This document shows, piece after piece, positions 24,970 to 35,992 of a stretch of 64,000 nt of DNA. A model generated the notes under the pieces. The model was not told the origin of the DNA, made no database searches, and saw only the letters and a list, made by a program, of their open reading frames with translations. Positions within the stretch are counted from its first letter, which is position 1. Each line of letters starts with the position of its first letter. The stretch comes from Candidatus Eisenbacteria bacterium (lineage in GTDB: Bacteria; Eisenbacteria; RBG-16-71-46; SZUA-252), in contig VBOZ01000010.1 of NCBI GenBank assembly GCA_005893305.1, positions 3,312 through 67,311 of the forward strand, written 5' to 3'. Position numbers and translations under genes: made by a program.

Positions 24970-25023
24970 GCCCCGCGAAGGCAACGATTTCGGCCCATCC
25001 ACCCCCTTCGGAGGGTGCCAACC

Positions 25024-25931
25024 ATGGCCAAGAAGCCATCGGCCCGCAGGCCAAAGAAATCGGCCAAGTCACGGAAGTCTAAATCTCACAAGCAGATAAA
25101 GAGGAAACGATCGGTGCCGACGAAGCCGAAGGGAAGCGCCAGGAAGAAGCCCGCAGCGCGCACAACACGTCCAAAATCGAGCGCCGCTGCCAAAGCAAAG
25201 GCCCGTCCCGCTACCAAGCCGAAGCCAGCCTCGAAGGCGAAGGCGCCTCCTAGGCCGATGCCTCAGGCGGCAAGGGCGGCGAAAGCGCCCGTCATGGGCA
25301 GGTCGAAGATGTCGGCGCGCTCGGGCGGTAGGACGGGAGGCTCGGGGCAGGGAGCGCTGGAGTTCGAATCCGAGCCCACCATGAGCACGTACACGGAGCC
25401 GCCGGTCAACGTCCCGCCCGCGCCGCGACGCCGGTCGGCCGCGAAGCCTGGCTCGCCCGATTGGCCGGGCGAGAGCCTGACCGTGGGCATGATGGCGCCG
25501 GAGTTCTCGCTTCCGAGCACGCTCGGCCGGAAGATCTCGCTCAATGAATTCCGGGGAAGCGCGTCATTCTCTACTTCTACCCGAAGGACGACACGCCGGG
25601 CTGCACGATGGAAGCCTGCGCGTTCCGCGACCACCTCCCGCGGATCCAGACAAAGGGCGCCGTGGTGCTCGGGGTCAGCCTCGATGACGAGCTGAGCCAC
25701 CAGCGATTCACGCAGAAGTACAACCTGCCGTTCCCGCTCCTCTCGGACGTCGACGCCGCAGTGTCGCGCCAGTACGGGACGTACAAGGAGAAGAATCTCT
25801 ACGGCCGGAGCTACTGGGGGATCGAGCGAACGACGTTCGTGATCGACCGCGAGGGTCGCGTCGAGAACGTCTTCCGGCGCGTCAAGGTTGAGGGGCACGC
25901 CGAGGAGGTCATGGCGACGCTCGCCGTCTAG
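25024..25931 (+). pseudogene. Bcp-type peroxiredoxin with Lys/Ala/Pro-rich N-terminal extension, interrupted by a -1 frameshift
   Basis: Start ATG 25024 (GGAGG 9 nt upstream). The first ~100 codons encode a Lys/Ala/Pro/Arg-rich, histone-H1/AlgP-like tail (AKKPSARRPKKSAKSRKSKS). A short linker is followed by a Bcp/AhpC-TSA domain beginning SLTVGMMAPEFSLPSTLGRK. The frame breaks at the G run 25553-25556 (CCGGGGAAG). With one extra G the reading continues as GKRVILYFYPKDDTPGCTME, giving the peroxidatic Cys, then the whole domain to the stop at 25929-25931. The original-frame product would end at 25695 with nonsense sequence. Either a homopolymer sequencing error or a real lesion; all downstream codons still look selected. 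pyk starts inside the stop codon. Confidence 0.8.
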
Positions 25932-28372: not shown

Positions 28373-29005
28373 CTACGTAGTCGGGATCAGGTGAAGCCAG
28401 TCGCGCAGCAGGAACTGAACCCGGGAGATCAAGAGCGAGACGCGAGCCATCACCGTGTAGCCGAAGGACGCCCCGAAGGCGACCATCAGGAACCAGGTGC
28501 CGATCCTGGCCCCCACTCCGTGGATCCCCCGGTGCGGCGCGGAGAAGAAGAAGTAGGCCAGTACCGTGAGGAGCCCCAAAAGCACGAGCGCGGAGTTGAC
28601 CGCGCCCCAGCCCGGCGCGAACGGCTTCGCCGCGTCGCTCAGCTGCGCGAAGATCTGTCCCTGTAAGTATCCCGGCACCGCGATCCCCGAGTAGATCCCC
28701 ACGTAGAAGGCGATCGCCCATCGCGCGGGACCCGTCATTCGCTCCCAGACCCTGGCGAGCATCAGAATGCCGAGAATCGCGGGGATCAGGGCCAGGATAA
28801 TCGATTGCGGCGTGCGCGGTCCGGCAGTGAGCGGCGTCCAGACGTTCGGCAGGATCACGTCCTGGTACTGGATCGCGAGCAGGTAGCCCGCGGCGACGCC
28901 GACGAAGAGGTGCTCGGCGAAGCGGTAGAACGGATTGTCGCGATAGAGGAACGAGAAGACGCAGAGCGTCAGAAAGGCCGCGACCCAGGTCTCGACGATG
29001 CTCAC
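28373..29005 (-). CDS. polytopic membrane protein, last gene of the four-gene membrane operon
   Basis: 210 residues with about six membrane segments (ETWVAAFLTLCVFSFLYRDN, FVGVAAGYLLAIQY, SIILALIPAILGILMLARVW, a Gly/Tyr-rich helix near AIAFYVGIYSGIAVPGYL, ALVLLGLLTVLAYFFF and IGTWFLMVAFGASFGYTVMA). Conserved-looking polar sites include RDNPFYRFAEHLF near the N-terminus. I do not recognise a characterised family. GTG 29005 overlaps the stop of the preceding gene (GTGA), so it is co-translated with the 272-residue protein and presumably works with it in the membrane. Confidence 0.75.
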   Translation of the reverse strand: MSIVETWVAAFLTLCVFSFLYRDNPFYRFAEHLFVGVAAGYLLAIQYQDVILPNVWTPLTAGPRTPQSIILALIPAILGILMLARVWERMTGPARWAIAFYVGIYSGIAVPGYLQGQIFAQLSDAAKPFAPGWGAVNSALVLLGLLTVLAYFFFSAPHRGIHGVGARIGTWFLMVAFGASFGYTVMARVSLLISRVQFLLRDWLHLIPTT

Positions 29006-29820
29006 GCGACCCTCCGGGTCATGAAGAGCGCCGCGTTGCCCAGGATCACGAGAGCGGCGATGATCAGATGAACCAGGCTCTGCGCATCCATTCCCCGGCG
29101 CGCGTCCCCGAAAATGCCCATCCGCTTCTCGTATTCCGCGGCACCCTTCATCCCGCCGATCAGGCCCAGGATCTGACGCGACGACAGGTACGGGTAGTAG
29201 TCGGTCGCCATGACCGCGGTCACGCCGAGGATGAGCGGCTTGTGGAAGCGGCTCGCCGCGAACTGGATCCAGTAGTCGGCCCCGCTCGACGCCGATAGAT
29301 TGATGACGAGGTCGATCTTCGCGTACGAATCGACTCCGCGCATCACCGGGATCGAATCGAGCGGCGTCCCGTAGAAATCGACCGGGAACTGCTGTCGGAT
29401 GCTCTCGCCGATCGCGATCATCACCGTCTGAAATCCCGACTTGTATCCGAGGAAGGCGTAGTCCTTGTTCCGCTCCTTCCCCTCGGCGACGGCCGCCAGT
29501 CGGAGCGCGGGCTCGACGAGGCCCGGGCCAGCCGGGTAGAGCGTGATCACGATCAGCTTGAGATTCTTACGGAAGCAGTGGCGGAGCACCGCGATCGACA
29601 TCGGCTGAAGCTCCGCCATCGTGTCGGGCTCATAGTCCATCGAGATGAACACGGTCGAGCCCGGCGGAAGCGACTCGATCGTCTGATACGCCGCTTCGAC
29701 GCGCGGCGTCACGGTGATCGGGAGGTTCACCGGCCAGAGGAGCGGGAGCGCCGTCCCCAGACCCACGAGCACGAAGATCAGGCGGCGGTCGATCGCGAGG
29801 ACCCTGACCGCCCAGCTCAT
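29002..29820 (-). CDS. membrane-anchored alpha/beta protein of unknown function (four-gene membrane operon)
   Basis: 272 residues. An N-terminal helix (FVLVGLGTALPLLWPVNLP) and a C-terminal helix (LVHLIIAALVILGNAALF) flank a ~200-residue alpha/beta domain. That domain contains strand-turn patterns such as STVFISMDYEPDTMAEL, LKLIVITLYPAGPG, VMIAIGESIRQQFPVDFYGT, DLVINLSASSGADYW and KPLILGVTAVMATDYYPYL. The last segment suggests a Rossmann-like sheet, but no nucleotide-binding or catalytic motif is certain. ATG 29820 overlaps the upstream stop (ATGA). The topology mirrors that of the 264-residue first gene of the operon. Confidence 0.72.
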   Translation of the reverse strand: MSWAVRVLAIDRRLIFVLVGLGTALPLLWPVNLPITVTPRVEAAYQTIESLPPGSTVFISMDYEPDTMAELQPMSIAVLRHCFRKNLKLIVITLYPAGPGLVEPALRLAAVAEGKERNKDYAFLGYKSGFQTVMIAIGESIRQQFPVDFYGTPLDSIPVMRGVDSYAKIDLVINLSASSGADYWIQFAASRFHKPLILGVTAVMATDYYPYLSSRQILGLIGGMKGAAEYEKRMGIFGDARRGMDAQSLVHLIIAALVILGNAALFMTRRVA

Positions 29821-30437
29821 CGCGATCTCCCGAGGTATCCGCGCTCAATCCCGAGAATGATTTTGAGGCCGATCGATACGGCTCCGAGCCCGACGCCGAT
29901 CGCGATCGCGCGCTTCGCGGCGAGGTTGGGCACGTCGAGGAGCCACTCCGTGAATCCGGGGAACCCCTTCCAGATGAGTTCCCCGATCGAGACCCGTCCG
30001 ACCATCATGAGGACGGCGGTCACGAGAAGGAGGGTCGCTTCCACGTTCCGCGCCCGGAAGGCGCGAAACGCGGCCGAGGCGATGAAGAAGGCGAGCAGGG
30101 CGAACATCGTCGAAGCGAGCGGCGAGTTCACCATGTTGTAGATCCGGCTCACGAGCGTCCCCTCGGCGACCCCCTGGGCGACGCCGAGCGCGGTGACGAC
30201 GACGAGCGCGACGAGCGTGACGATGCTGTAGGGCCATCCGTCCGACTTGAGCCGAATCTTCCGAAAGTGCGTATTCCAGAGCGAGATCGAGCCCAGGATC
30301 AGCGCGAACGCGTAGACGACGGAGGCCCACTCCAAGAGCTTCCCGTTGACGGCCTGGGCTTGGTAATGCGGGATGAAAAAGAGGGCGATGATTGTCGTGC
30401 CGACGAGGAACGTGAGGACAAGCGGCCCCGAGCGCAC
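29817..30437 (-). CDS. polytopic membrane protein (four-gene membrane operon)
   Basis: 206 residues from GTG 30437 with six predicted membrane helices (PLVLTFLVGTTIIALFFIP, ASVVYAFALILGSISLW, IVTLVALVVVTALGVAQGV, TMFALLAFFIASAAFRAF, LLVTAVLMMVGRVSIGELI and AIGVGLGAVSIGLKIILGIE). Between helices, NTHFRKIRLKSDGWPYS looks cytoplasmic and basic. I do not recognise the family. It lies 17 bp after the 264-residue gene and overlaps the 272-residue gene, so the four products are likely made together. Confidence 0.72.
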   Translation of the reverse strand: MRSGPLVLTFLVGTTIIALFFIPHYQAQAVNGKLLEWASVVYAFALILGSISLWNTHFRKIRLKSDGWPYSIVTLVALVVVTALGVAQGVAEGTLVSRIYNMVNSPLASTMFALLAFFIASAAFRAFRARNVEATLLLVTAVLMMVGRVSIGELIWKGFPGFTEWLLDVPNLAAKRAIAIGVGLGAVSIGLKIILGIERGYLGRSR

Positions 30438-30454
30438 GCGGTCGGCCTAGGTGC

Positions 30455-31249
30455 TCACGAGGCTTTGAGAAGGCGGCCCAGCTCGGGGTGGCCGAGGGCG
30501 GAGAGGGCGATGGCCAAGACGATCATCGCGGCGGCGAGCGCCTTGGCCCAGTCTTGCGCCGCGATCGTCGCGAGCTGCACCGCCTCCTGGCCGATGTACG
30601 CGCCCGCGGCGAAGAGCTCCTCGCCCATCAGCGTGTAGTCGCAGGCGCACACGAAGAAGGGAAGCTGGGTCACCTTGTCGCACCCCGCGATCTGGATCGC
30701 GCCGGTCAGATTTCCCGTTTCGGCGAGGAAGAGCGACTCGGCGTAGAAGCTTCCCATGTAGACGATCGCCGCGGGACGCTCGCGGAGCATCACTCCCGTG
30801 ACCGCCGCGACGTACGCGAACTGCTGTGCGCTCACGTAGTGGACGCTCCCGGGCTTGAACTCGTCGCCCCGGCCGGCCTCCACGTACGCCTCTCGCGCCA
30901 CCCCGTCCATGATCGCCATGACGACAGGGTCGTAGCAGGGGACCTGCATGCTGCATCCCAGATCGGCCACCTTCCTCGCCACGCGGCTCATGATCGTGAT
31001 CGCGGCGAGCGTACCGACCTCGCTCATGTCCCCGAGGCCGGGCAGGTAGAGGACCGATTTGCCCATCTCGGTGGCGCGGCCGATCGCCTCGTCCAGTGCC
31101 TTGAGGCCGGCGAGGGGACGGATGAAGACCGAGCCGCCGCGTTTCGCGCGAAGAATGTTGATGGTGAGAAATGCGAGGAAAATGAGAAGGCCGACGAGAA
31201 GGTTGGTGCGGGCGGGGTCAAACCACCGGGTGTCGAGCTCGGCGCCCAT
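30455..31249 (-). CDS. membrane-anchored protein resembling DUF6754, first gene of the four-gene membrane operon
   Basis: 264 residues. TM helix near residues 15-33 (NLLVGLLIFLAFLTINIL) and a C-terminal helix (ALAAAMIVLAIALSALG). The middle domain is rich in small residues with repeated beta-alpha units: GKSVLYLPGLGDMSEVGTLA, CSMQVPCYDPVVMAIMDGVA, VHYVSAQQFAYVAAVTGVML, AAIVYMGSFYAESLFLAETG, FFVCACDYTLMGEELFAAGA. My recollection is that this matches a domain of unknown function (DUF6754), which I cannot verify here. Start ATG 31249 coincides with the predicted transcription start, so it may be leaderless. No known catalytic motif; four cysteines, two of them close together (VCAC). Confidence 0.7.
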   Translation of the reverse strand: MGAELDTRWFDPARTNLLVGLLIFLAFLTINILRAKRGGSVFIRPLAGLKALDEAIGRATEMGKSVLYLPGLGDMSEVGTLAAITIMSRVARKVADLGCSMQVPCYDPVVMAIMDGVAREAYVEAGRGDEFKPGSVHYVSAQQFAYVAAVTGVMLRERPAAIVYMGSFYAESLFLAETGNLTGAIQIAGCDKVTQLPFFVCACDYTLMGEELFAAGAYIGQEAVQLATIAAQDWAKALAAAMIVLAIALSALGHPELGRLLKAS

Positions 31250-31255
31250 GGCTCG

Positions 31256-31285
31256 ACCCTAGCACGTCCTCGAAATCGCGGTCAA
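31256..31285 (-). promoter_or_regulatory. promoter of the four-gene membrane operon, apparently leaderless
   Basis: Reverse strand: -35 TTGACC (31280-31285), 18-nt spacer, -10 TAGGGT (31256-31261), ending 6 nt before ATG 31249. It overlaps the stop codon of the upstream gene. No SD. Confidence 0.42.
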
Positions 31286-33237
31286 CGCGCGCCCTTCTTC
31301 GCCGCGGCGTTCCTCTGCTCCTTCAGGTACGCGCCGAACATCTCGTCGAGCTGCTTGACCGCCATCGGGTCGAGCTTCCGCACCTCTTCCCGCTCACCCG
31401 CCGCGCTCTCCCGGTCTCCCAGCCGGAGGTAGGCGAGCGCGAGGTTCATGTGCGCCTGGACGGACTTGGGCGCCAGGCCGACAAGGCGGATGAAGAGATC
31501 GCGGGCCTCTTCCACCTTCCCTGTGGATCCCAGGATCGTGCCCAGGTTGTTCAGCGCGAGGACGTCGCTCGGATGGAGTGAGATCACCTTCCCGTAGGCG
31601 GCGATTGCGCCCTTCGCATCTCCGTACGCGGCGAGCGCGACCCCGTAGTTGTACCAGCCGTCCGCGAACGTCGAATCGAGGTCGGTCGCGCGTCGCGCCG
31701 CTTCGACCGCCTGCTCGATCTTCTGCTGCTGCAGGAGCGCATCGCTCAGGTTCGCATAGGAAGCGGCGTCGTTGGGGTCGAGGTCGATGGCGCGGCGGGC
31801 GGAGCCCTCGGCGTCGGAGAAGCGACCAAGCTGGCTCAGGATCGCCGTGCGCTTCGCGACGGCGGCGTGGTTCTTCGGGTCGAGCGCGATCGCGCGGTCG
31901 ATCTCGGCGAGCGCCGCCGGCCACTCACGAGCATGGCCAAAGTAGTTGACGAGGGTCAGGTGTGGCCCCGGATCCTTGGGATTCGATGCCACGGCGGCGT
32001 ATAGGAGGCTCACGTCGTCACGCCAGACCGGGAGGCGGAGGAGCGTGTCGAGCCCCGCCACGGCGGCGATCACGATTGCCGCGACGAGGAGGAGCGGACG
32101 GAGCGCCGCGAAGCTGCGGGCGGCCCACGCGTAGATCGACGCGACGATGAGACAGAGGCCGACCGACGCAAGATAGGCACCGCGCTCGGCCGCGAACGAT
32201 CCGATGAACATGGGAAGGGGAAGTGCCGGAAGGAGCGGGAGAAGAAGGAGGAGCGCGCCGGCCCGGGCGATGGGATCGCGCCTCCGCCACACGACGATGA
32301 GCGCGAGGCCGGCCAGGGCAGCGAACGGGGCGAGCCGGCCGGTCCAGGATGAAACCTCCCCGGCGTGGAGCGCTCGGAGCGCGTTCAACGGGTGGGGGTA
32401 GACGAGCATCTTCAGATACTCGAAGACCGCCATCGGCACCGCCCAGGCTCGCGCCGCGGCGTCGATGCCGCTCGCTGCGTCGGCGCTCCCAAGGGTTGGC
32501 GTGGCGCCCCCGCCCGACACGAAACGCACGAGCAGGTAGACCAGGGCGATCGCGAAGAAGCCCGAGTAGTGCGTGAGGCGTTGGCGCAAGGGAACTCGAA
32601 CCGGGCCCCATCGGTCGAGCCCGACCAAGAGAAAGGGCGTCACGATCGCGACCTCGTCGCTCAACACCGCGGCCACCATCGCCGCGTAGGCAGGCCAGAT
32701 CTTCCAAGAGCGGCATCCCTCCGGCGTGCAGAGCTCGGCGGAGCGTGCGAGCAGGAGCGCCGTGAGCACGAAGACCGTGGCCAGGAGATCGGGCAGGCCG
32801 GAGATGTAGGCGACCGCCTCGACGTGAACGGGGTGGGCGGCGAAGAGGAGCGCAGCCACGAAGGCGATCCCGGGCCGCGCCCCGACGTGGAGCGCCATTC
32901 GGAAGAAGAGCCACGTCGCCGCGCCGTGGAGGAGGATGCTGACCATGTGCGCGAAGAGGGGCGAGCCGTAGCCCGACGCCCACTCGAGGCGAAACAGGAG
33001 CGACGTCAGGAGGCGGAGGCCCTCCGCGCCCACACCGCCCGCGCCGTTCGAGATGACGAGAAGCCGGTCGTCCCATACCCAGCCGTAGGGGAGGGCGGGG
33101 AGGTAGAGCGCGATCGCGGCGAACGCGCAGAGAACGCCTAGCACGTTGGGGCTCAGCGCGGACGCGCGCGGGCCGGCGACGCGGGGTGGGGTCGCGGCCC
33201 CTGTATGGCGGTTCTTGGCTTCCCTCTTGCCCGGCAC
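31282..33237 (-). CDS. TMTC-like integral membrane protein with C-terminal TPR repeats (probable glycosyltransferase)
   Basis: About 651 residues from GTG 33237. The N-terminal ~400 residues hold roughly ten membrane helices with GT-C features: acidic WVWDDRLLVISN in the first large loop and the hallmark FAAHPVHVEAVAYISGLPDLLA shared with TMTC O-mannosyltransferases. The C-terminal ~200 residues form at least five tetratricopeptide repeats (ALAEIDRAIALDPKNHAAVA, SYANLSDALLQQQKIEQAVE, GVALAAYGDAKGAIAAYGKV). The open frame extends to 33360, but that would overlap the promoter and start of the divergent gene, so a later start is preferred; the exact start is uncertain. Likely glycosylates exported proteins using a lipid-linked sugar. 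Confidence 0.78.
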   Translation of the reverse strand: MPGKREAKNRHTGAATPPRVAGPRASALSPNVLGVLCAFAAIALYLPALPYGWVWDDRLLVISNGAGGVGAEGLRLLTSLLFRLEWASGYGSPLFAHMVSILLHGAATWLFFRMALHVGARPGIAFVAALLFAAHPVHVEAVAYISGLPDLLATVFVLTALLLARSAELCTPEGCRSWKIWPAYAAMVAAVLSDEVAIVTPFLLVGLDRWGPVRVPLRQRLTHYSGFFAIALVYLLVRFVSGGGATPTLGSADAASGIDAAARAWAVPMAVFEYLKMLVYPHPLNALRALHAGEVSSWTGRLAPFAALAGLALIVVWRRRDPIARAGALLLLLPLLPALPLPMFIGSFAAERGAYLASVGLCLIVASIYAWAARSFAALRPLLLVAAIVIAAVAGLDTLLRLPVWRDDVSLLYAAVASNPKDPGPHLTLVNYFGHAREWPAALAEIDRAIALDPKNHAAVAKRTAILSQLGRFSDAEGSARRAIDLDPNDAASYANLSDALLQQQKIEQAVEAARRATDLDSTFADGWYNYGVALAAYGDAKGAIAAYGKVISLHPSDVLALNNLGTILGSTGKVEEARDLFIRLVGLAPKSVQAHMNLALAYLRLGDRESAAGEREEVRKLDPMAVKQLDEMFGAYLKEQRNAAAKKGAR

Positions 33238-33298
33238 GGCGGTAGAGTGCCGTTCATCGCCGGTCGGTTCAAGGGCACATTTCACCAAGGAGGCCAGG

Positions 33299-34120
33299 AT
33301 GGCCGATGTCATGGATGAACGGGTCCGATCGATCGAGTTCTGCGCGGGGCTGGGCTTCACGCTCGGGGCCCTTTTTCTATCTCTATCGCTCTGCCTCTAT
33401 CCGAGGCTGGCGCCCGCGAATCAAACGAACCTGATCCTCGACGCCCTCTCCAAGGAAGACATCGGATCGTGGATGGGGCTTCACGCCCTGATGGTCATGG
33501 GCTTCTTCCTCGCCACGCTCGGCCTGGTGGCGTACGGATTTCTTCTCCACCTGAAGGGCTCGTCGGGGCCGGCCTCCCTCGTCAGCACGAGTGCCCTGAT
33601 CGGGGGCGGGCTCTGGACGACCTTCCTCTCGATGGAGTTCTTCGTCGGGCCGTTTCTTAAGACCTACTATCCGATCGACCCCGGTCTCGCGACCATGCTC
33701 TTCAGCACAGTCTGGTTCTGGAAAATGGGCGCGCTCGCGGTCGGCGGCGTTCTGCTCTTTACGGCCGTCATCGGGTGCGGCGTCTCGGGCACGTCGAGGG
33801 GGTTGATGCCGCTCTGGCTCGGATGGGGCGGCGCGTTCTTCGGCGTCGTGGGAATCCTGATCTACGTGTTCGAGTTCCTGACGGCGACCGCGACCGGCGC
33901 CGCCATCAATCCGATGCGCGGTGCGGGTGTCCGCTACGGCGTCGGGCTCCCCATCCAGCTCTGGATGATCGGCGCCGGGTTGATGCTCCTGCGCGATTAC
34001 AACACTCGGGCGCGCACGCTCCCGCCCCAGGCGCGAACCCCGGTGCCGCCGCGGCGTGAGCCGGCCCCCGCGATGCCGAGGGCCTCGGAGCCGCCCCCGC
34101 TCCCGCCGCCGATTCCGTAG
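33299..34120 (+). CDS. membrane protein of unknown function with Pro-rich tail
   Basis: 273 residues; ATG 33299 has AAGGAGG six nt upstream. About six membrane helices (GLGFTLGALFLSLSLCLYP, GLHALMVMGFFLATLGLVAYG, LVSTSALIGGGLWTTFLSME, MGALAVGGVLLFTAVIGCGV, LGWGGAFFGVVGILIYVFEF and LPIQLWMIGAGLMLLRDY). The C-terminal ~35 residues are a Pro/Arg/Glu-rich cytoplasmic tail ending in PPPLPPPIP, a possible protein-interaction segment. No characterised family recognised; it sits between two TPR membrane proteins transcribed the other way. Confidence 0.75.
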   Translation: MADVMDERVRSIEFCAGLGFTLGALFLSLSLCLYPRLAPANQTNLILDALSKEDIGSWMGLHALMVMGFFLATLGLVAYGFLLHLKGSSGPASLVSTSALIGGGLWTTFLSMEFFVGPFLKTYYPIDPGLATMLFSTVWFWKMGALAVGGVLLFTAVIGCGVSGTSRGLMPLWLGWGGAFFGVVGILIYVFEFLTATATGAAINPMRGAGVRYGVGLPIQLWMIGAGLMLLRDYNTRARTLPPQARTPVPPRREPAPAMPRASEPPPLPPPIP

Positions 34121-34153: not shown

Positions 34154-35992
34154 CTAGCGCCGGGCCTGCGAGGCGAGTGCCTTGACCGTCGGGGCGTAGC
34201 CCGGCCAGTGATCGAGCACGCGAGTCCAGACCGCTCTTGCCGAGTCCGGGTAGCCGGCGTGGTCGTAAGCCACACCCAGATCATGCAGGTAGTCGGGTCG
34301 CTCTCCGCCGGGTCTCCCCGCCGCTGCCCGTAGCTCCTGCAGCGCGTCAGCGCCGCGGCCCAGATACGCGTAGCTCAAACCCAGATCGTGCCGGGTCGAG
34401 GCACGATCCCATCCCCGACCGATTGCCTCCTCGTAGGAGCGAGCCGCCTTCGCGTGGTCGCCCACACGGAAATATTCGCTCCCCACCATGACCGAGTAGC
34501 GTGGATTCGTCGGCTCGGCCTCGTACGCACGCCCGGCATACGCGAGCGCGGAGCGGTAGTCACCGCGGTCTTCGTAGAACTCCGCGAGGACGCTGTTCGG
34601 GTAGGCGCGACCCTGAGCCGGAATCCTGGTCCCCGGTCCGATCAAGGTCCGGAAGCGGCGAAGCGAGGCCTCCTCGTTCGCGCTGACGAGGAGGAAGGGT
34701 AGAACGGCGCAGAGCGAGAGACTCGCCACGCCAACGCGAAAGAGGACCGGCGCGCCGTGGACCAGCCTGGCGCCGAGCCCGATCGCGAGCACGCACGCGG
34801 GGACGAAGAGGAGCGCGAGCAAATCCCAATCCACAGCGGGCGCCGGGAGGGCGAGCAGGAACGCCGCGGCGAGGCCCGGGAACATCGCCGCAGCGAGGTA
34901 CATCGCCTCACGCGACCGCAGCCACTGACGGACGCTCCGCGTCGTCAGTGCCGCGATGGCGAGGAGCATGGCGATTGGCATGATCAGAAGAGCCTCGTTC
35001 GCCAAGTCGGCGGCGTGCCCCAGGAGATGCGGCAGGGTGAATTTCCATCCCCCCGATGCCGCCCCGGACAGCGTCGACGCGTCGAGGGCGATCCGCAAGG
35101 ACTCCAGCCAGTCGCTCGGGCGACTCCCCGCGAGCAGAGCCAGGGCCGGCGTCAGCACCACCGGTACCAGGCACCAGAGGATTCGGTGCGACATCCGCCG
35201 CTCCTGTCGAGCGACGAGGTAGAGGTACGAAGGCCAGAGATAGAGGGTGAGGAAGTGTGAGGCGGTCGCCAGGGATAGTAGAACCGGAATGGCCGCGAAC
35301 GCGCCTTTCCCGGAAAGACTCCGAAAGCCCAGCCACAAATAGCCGAGGACCAGAACCATCACCGGTGGGTAGCTTTCCAGATAGCCGCAATAGAGCCCGG
35401 TGACGCCGAGCGTAAGAAGGAGAAAGAGGGCGTCCCTCCTCGTCTCCGGATCCAGATGCTTCGCCATCGCGAAGCAGATGAGGAACGAGAGCCCACCGCA
35501 GAGAATCGAGAGAAGCCCGAATTCCGCCGCCGTCGCCCCCGGCAGGAGCGATCGAACAATCGACCCAAACGCGACCCAGACCGCCGCCGCGAGCGGCTCG
35601 CTGTAGGCTTGGTGTTGGCCCGTCTTCAAGATCGTGAGCCACACCGTCCCGTCCCCGAGCAAGTGCGTGCGGGCACGAAGAACGTAGAGCGCCGCGCAGA
35701 ACAAGAGAAGCAGCGCGACGAGCTTGGGGAATCGCGACGCGTCGGGTGGGCCGGGGGCCGTGTCGCGTTCCTCGGCAGGCGCCGCGGAGGACTTCGCAAC
35801 GCACCCGCAGAAGGTGAGAGCCGCCGCGCCAAGAAAGAGAGCGACCAAGGCGGTCCTCACGCCGCCCTGCAGAAATCCGAAGGAGTGGAGGCCCCACGCG
35901 AGTGGGCCCGGGCTTTGGCTCGCGAGCAGCATCGCCGCGAAGTAGGCGATGCAGAATCCGAGGAAAACGAAACGCGCGGCTCGAATGCTCAC
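34154..35992 (-). CDS. polytopic membrane protein with C-terminal TPR repeats (GT-C-like)
   Basis: 612 residues from GTG 35992. The first ~430 residues contain about eleven membrane helices with an early acidic loop (THLLGDGTVWLTILKTG), as in GT-C glycosyltransferases. The C-terminal ~155 residues are TPRs (AYPNSVLAEFYEDRGDYRSA, GSEYFRVGDHAKAARSYEEA, HDLGLSYAYLGRGADALQEL, HDLGVAYDHAGYPDSARAVW). It shares layout but little sequence with the TMTC-like protein at 31.3-33.2 kb. A -10-like TAAGAT lies 10 nt before the GTG and just after the nrdJ terminator. Probable sugar transfer to exported proteins or lipids; substrate unknown. Confidence 0.75.
   Translation of the reverse strand: MSIRAARFVFLGFCIAYFAAMLLASQSPGPLAWGLHSFGFLQGGVRTALVALFLGAAALTFCGCVAKSSAAPAEERDTAPGPPDASRFPKLVALLLLFCAALYVLRARTHLLGDGTVWLTILKTGQHQAYSEPLAAAVWVAFGSIVRSLLPGATAAEFGLLSILCGGLSFLICFAMAKHLDPETRRDALFLLLTLGVTGLYCGYLESYPPVMVLVLGYLWLGFRSLSGKGAFAAIPVLLSLATASHFLTLYLWPSYLYLVARQERRMSHRILWCLVPVVLTPALALLAGSRPSDWLESLRIALDASTLSGAASGGWKFTLPHLLGHAADLANEALLIMPIAMLLAIAALTTRSVRQWLRSREAMYLAAAMFPGLAAAFLLALPAPAVDWDLLALLFVPACVLAIGLGARLVHGAPVLFRVGVASLSLCAVLPFLLVSANEEASLRRFRTLIGPGTRIPAQGRAYPNSVLAEFYEDRGDYRSALAYAGRAYEAEPTNPRYSVMVGSEYFRVGDHAKAARSYEEAIGRGWDRASTRHDLGLSYAYLGRGADALQELRAAAGRPGGERPDYLHDLGVAYDHAGYPDSARAVWTRVLDHWPGYAPTVKALASQARR

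Follow-up and report, generated by a model that had tools for sequence, protein, structure and literature searches.

The window (the whole stretch of DNA analysed, 64,000 nucleotides from a Candidatus Eisenbacteria bacterium) carries four closely packed genes on the minus strand, running from position 31249 to position 28373, which we refer to as A, B, C and D. Gene A (30455..31249) encodes a protein of 264 residues that is assigned to DUF6754 (PF20539) by profile match. B (29817..30437) encodes a six-TM protein of 206 residues with no Pfam, NCBIfam or PDB family, C (29002..29820) a protein of 272 residues with an AlphaFold-modelled fold and no family, and D (28373..29005) a protein of 210 residues with about six TM segments, likewise without a family. 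The four open reading frames lie where the first-pass annotation, made from the sequence alone, had placed them, and their codon-position GC pattern is gene-like, with values of 0.88-0.90 at the third position. A gap of 17 bp separates A from B, while B and C share an ATGA overlap and C and D a GTGA overlap. The annotation had counted three short junctions out of four; these three are indeed short, but the quartet has only three internal junctions, the fourth being that to a TPR gene.

The latter gene (31282..33360, minus strand) lies 32 bp upstream of A and encodes a multi-TM protein of 692 residues with C-terminal TPR repeats. One relative from the same family (locus L044) has a homologue (523 bits) at the equivalent position, and the gene is absent beside other ABCD copies; it is possibly a lineage-specific neighbour outside the core system. 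This gene and a second at 34154-35992, likewise for a multi-TM protein ending in TPR repeats, flank a divergent gene upstream of A, and by eye only both products resemble GT-C-type glycosyltransferases. Elsewhere in the window a peroxiredoxin-like gene (25015-25931) is apparently split by a frameshift: the open reading frame at 25015-25695 runs out of frame after 'SLNEFRG' and the remainder of the gene lies on that at 25608-25931. A sequencing error in the assembly and a real break are both possible.

Families, folds and predicted topology of A-D

Protein A is a clear member of DUF6754, matching positions 3-249 of the 257 in the profile with an E-value of 3.5e-100 (334.8 bits against a gathering cut-off of 27), so that the resemblance given in the annotation was correct; the family itself is a domain of unknown function. 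In the AlphaFold models, which are confident, A (pLDDT 87.9) and C (pLDDT 95.4) each consist of an N-terminal TM helix, a Rossmann-like domain and a C-terminal TM helix, as had been proposed from the sequence, and the two share the element order TM - helix - (strand, helix) x 6 - TM. Both proteins are highly conserved in alignments, with invariant polar residues. The A protein of the window lacks a signal peptide and an Fn3 domain, while most of its relatives, paralogues in the same genome included, have Fn3 forms. Foldseek searches of A and C against the PDB returned only generic Rossmann-like matches with TM-scores, by query, of no more than about 0.36, and when the PDB was searched with the A profile, the Fn3 domain present in its relatives accounted for all matches. 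C matched nothing in Pfam or NCBIfam, a scan of every member of its alignment gave scattered weak matches only, and the PDB profile search gave no solved relative. The suggestion that A and C are distant duplicates is compatible with the shared element order of the models but not supported by profile comparison, which found no sequence similarity between them (4%). Alternating alpha/beta folds are common, and with the profile comparison negative we leave the duplication open.

Protein B has six hydrophobic segments and a conserved RAFRAR loop after TM4. D has five clear hydrophobic segments and one weak one, together with a conserved YKDNPFYKFAEH loop and TM6 segment; the six helices claimed for both proteins are thus evident in B and merely compatible with the pattern in D. 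B and D likewise matched nothing in Pfam or NCBIfam, scanning every member of their alignments produced scattered weak matches and no family, and the PDB profile search no solved relative, so that B, C and D all remain without a characterised family, as the annotation had held. The weak matches include TMD0_ABC, hit by 7 of the 46 B proteins with a best E-value of 2e-4. No match to PF01618 (MotA/TolQ/ExbB) was seen in either B or D, and a profile comparison of B with D found no relation.

The topology of all four proteins was predicted from conserved positive charges by the positive-inside rule and is not a measurement. B has about 10 conserved positive charges on the side of the N-terminus, loops 2 and 4 and the C-terminus and 1 on the other, which predicts that both of its termini are inside. 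D has 8 in loops 1, 3 and 5 and 2 on the other side, placing its N-terminus outside in a predicted orientation opposite to that of B; the last segment of D is the least certain part of the prediction. Conserved K/R residues follow TM1 in A, and in C a conserved DRR precedes TM1 and RR follows TM2, from which the domain of A is predicted to be cytoplasmic and that of C periplasmic. The signal peptide and Fn3 domain that stand ahead of TM1 in most A relatives agree with the cytoplasmic placing of the A domain. On these conserved charges, A/B and C/D look oppositely oriented.

Conservation of the quartet

The source genome has three A genes, each within an ABCD quartet. Within the phylum A was found in 45 of 47 genomes, including all 26 of high quality, with one to seven matches in each, and D in 46 of the 47; the copy numbers of A and D are correlated (r = 0.96 over the 47 genomes). 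A scan of named genomes yielded at least 579 loci, of which 80 were kept, the phylum names being those in the depositors' titles. Most of the kept loci come from Eisenbacteria, Zixibacteria, Cloacimonadota, Fermentibacterota, Stahlbacteria/WOR-3, Latescibacterota, Coatesbacteria, Edwardsbacteria and Calditrichota, and a few are titled Planctomycetota, Acidobacteria, Gemmatimonadota or Deltaproteobacteria. A collection of plasmids gave no DUF6754 match.

The order A-B-C-D is present in roughly a dozen phyla, mostly uncultured, and in every complete quartet (115/115, from 103 loci with A-D genes), many of them in tandem. A lone 'ABDC' order (L041) proved to be an artefact of an over-extended D open reading frame and not a real rearrangement. 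Across the same loci the median gaps between the four genes are 12, -1 and -1 nt, and 77-83% of the internal gaps are of 20 nt or less. This arrangement is far beyond chance. Pairwise divergence of the A-D proteins is also correlated (r 0.63-0.82), and duplications almost always take in the whole quartet. In a tree of concatenated quartets the window copy pairs with that of the same-family relative (L044), and several well-supported clades each contain mixed phyla, so the paralogue classes are either old or horizontally spread.

The annotation had inferred a probable single membrane complex from gene spacing; invariant order, the parallel rise and fall of A and D copy numbers and correlated divergence all support it, with physical assembly remaining an inference. 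It had also named two findings that would count against it, namely clear homology to a known transporter, secretion or respiratory complex and a lack of order conservation outside this genome, and neither was encountered. Independent action of the four proteins, linked by nothing more than a common transcript, would be consistent with the lack of any gene fusion among A-D (none was found among A-H in the loci fetched to that point). That order has been kept across so many phyla, that it is nearly always the entire quartet that duplicates and that A and D are matched in number all run against separate action, which we regard as very unlikely.

Partner genes and neighbours of the operon

In the third copy in the source genome (locus L005), in single-copy relatives and in several further phyla, four more genes stand ahead of A in the order H-G-F-E, and H-G-F-E-A-B-C-D is the ancestral operon. 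H (L005:14057-14506) and G (L005:13675-14127), at its head, are small conserved proteins of about 150 residues each with no informative family; H has a hydrophobic N-terminal segment and G the motif PAIxFLESxKPLSFLGSQ. The partnership of F and E with ABCD is new here and was not part of the first-pass annotation.

By its Pfam assignment (PF13941; E-value 1.3e-126, and 423.5 bits for the L005 protein against a cut-off of 27) F is a GlmL/MutL-type ASKHA ATPase, although we have no direct evidence here of ATP hydrolysis. It differs from GlmL in being longer (607 residues, against 459 positions in the GlmL model), in falling below the NCBIfam equivalog cut-offs (224 bits against 475 for GlmL, NF040745; 162 against 204 for TIGR01319), in being tied to E and ABCD, and in that no B12 mutase gene was seen beside it. 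The N-terminal region of E is barrel-sandwich-like, with weak matches to RnfC_N (E-value 8e-4) and Biotin_lipoyl, and its C-terminus appears KOW-like on our own reading. E is better conserved than A-D, with a mean column identity of 65% in its alignment.

The association of F and E with the quartet is not confined to the operon. Among 39 Calditrichota genomes, 16 have A and 16 have E, with 15 in common, while F is in 14, of which 13 also have A, giving Fisher p values for co-occurrence with A of about 1e-8 for E and about 9e-7 for F, uncorrected for shared ancestry. In one of these genomes (G054) A, E and F lie on three contigs, and in two others (G085 and G086) A lies apart from a contig carrying F and E; since the genes co-occur despite lying on separate contigs, the link exceeds operon proximity. 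Across many phyla E was present in 19 of 20 A-bearing genomes, again with shared ancestry uncorrected. Copy numbers differ: 43 of the 47 genomes of the phylum have one full-length E, compared with up to 7 copies of A. Joint action of F and E is favoured by natural fusion proteins of about 970 residues, in which one half resembles F (40% identity over 494 residues, E-value 4e-127) and the other E (i-E 8.6e-46). Within the stretches that were read, these fusions (L150-L153, in genomes G024, G050, G101 and G025) are not near ABCD, and they are separate, more distant paralogues.

The family of F also underlies the main rival explanation, that ABCD is a membrane-bound enzyme, binding a nucleotide or cofactor through its Rossmann-like domains, with F-E as its chaperone or reactivase. 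GlmL-type proteins are thought to act as chaperones or reactivases for adenosylcobalamin mutases, and the invariant polar residues of the highly conserved, Rossmann-like A and C would suit such an enzyme. Glycine-cleavage genes (gcvPA/gcvPB/gcvT) adjoin the operon in several lineages (L005:10721-18848, L052:1848-13998 and L092:1637-13190), and D is followed by a lipoate ligase-like gene in some of these (L005 and L052). Yet no B12 enzyme gene was seen beside the loci read, F scores under the GlmL equivalog cut-offs, no catalytic motif was recognised, and an architecture with both cytoplasmic and periplasmic domains would be unusual. We consider the enzyme unlikely, though it cannot be set aside.

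The RnfC_N match in E, weak as it is, recalls the Rnf/Nqr redox pumps, which ABCD-F-E would resemble in having two six-TM subunits of opposite topology (here B and D) and a barrel-sandwich peripheral subunit. That ABCD is a divergent pump of this type is highly improbable. B and D have no Pfam match to PF02508, and hhalign comparison with RnfA/E-type proteins of the same phylum gave probabilities of only 2.3% and 0.9%; no conserved flavin or Fe-S motif was seen in the alignments; and the genomic distributions differ, Rnf being present in 12 of 29 relatives and A in all 39 of the relatives searched. Membership of B and D in the Rnf/Nqr family was rejected.

Other neighbours suggest, without proving, a role in the envelope. 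In WOR-3 and Fermentibacterota the operon continues into genes for a TonB-dependent receptor, ExbB, ExbD and TonB (with DUF4388 in WOR-3), which fits envelope transport, and a PorV/PorQ-family gene (190 bits, cut-off 90) near D at L052:19021-20019 suggests type IX-like secretion components in that lineage. These neighbours, together with the signal peptide and Fn3 domain of most A proteins, would be expected if ABCD formed the inner-membrane segment of a pathway for secretion or uptake across the envelope, one that is coupled to TonB/ExbBD or to a type IX-like system of the outer membrane and in which the Fn3 domain of A reaches into the periplasm. We think this improbable, since such neighbours are limited to a few lineages and missing from many ABCD copies, and the A protein of the window has no Fn3 domain. 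A-D themselves have no Pfam match that would make them ExbB or ExbD homologues and no Pfam or NCBIfam match to the type IX motor proteins GldL and GldM, with which no dedicated comparison was made. None of A-H matched a PADLOC model of anti-phage defence.

A possible membrane complex served by F and E

That A-D form a single conserved system, and that F and E are its partners, we consider likely. Taken as a whole, our preferred reading is an inner-membrane ABCD complex served by a shared F-E module and engaged in transport or signalling, which we hold only tentatively. The Rossmann-like domain of A would sit on the cytoplasmic face and that of C on the periplasmic face of the same complex, with the oppositely oriented polytopic proteins B and D between them; a cytoplasmic F-E module, usually one pair per genome, would serve several ABCD paralogues. 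C may capture a ligand or read the periplasm, B and D together may form a membrane path or relay, and A may complete the event in the cytoplasm, with F, docked on A by way of E, driving or resetting the conformational cycle as it binds ATP. That ABCD moves something or signals across the membrane under F-E control is an inference that we advance with low confidence. Gene order, families, folds, predicted topology, co-occurrence, the F-E fusion and copy numbers are observed; physical assembly, docking on A, the use of ATP and the transport or signalling function are inferred. For none of A-D is a ligand, catalytic motif or transporter signature known, and there is no direct evidence that F or E contacts them.

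Among known systems, the energy-coupling factor (ECF) transporters offer a parallel, in that one energising module serves several substrate components. To group II ECF transporters the likeness may be functional only, resting on a shared cytoplasmic module per genome with several membrane partners. Their ATPase is of the ABC type whereas F is of the ASKHA type, and no sequence relation was seen; none of the conserved partners A-H is an ABC ATPase, and an ABC ATPase-like open reading frame flanks 7 loci only.

A more far-reaching version would make ABCD an energised inner-membrane machine of a new class, pseudo-symmetric and with a Rossmann-like domain on each face. Its antiparallel pairs, A/B and C/D, would have arisen by ancient duplication, and a shared actin-fold ATPase of the GlmL/MutL type would power it through the adaptor E. 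The machine would be ancestral to a large part of the FCB group and to neighbouring groups. With all these elements combined we judge it unlikely.

No described system of this kind was found. B, C, D, E, F, G and H, the operon partners of DUF6754, are described in no searchable source, and literature searches for DUF6754 or PF13941 by name, or for related terms, returned nothing relevant; most subscription journals were outside the search, so an earlier description cannot be excluded. The first-pass annotation had singled out the quartet as its best candidate for an undescribed system, and the observation was right and, if anything, an understatement. Its undescribed complex is supported; the F and E partners, and the opposite orientations of A to C and of B to D, were beyond its view.

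If the complex is real, a core membrane machine of undescribed function is common to a dozen or so phyla, most of them known only through metagenomes. An ASKHA ATPase serving such a membrane complex would, if this is true, represent a novel means of powering or controlling a process at the membrane, and F, E, A, B, C and D make up a defined and testable set of genes from the operon.
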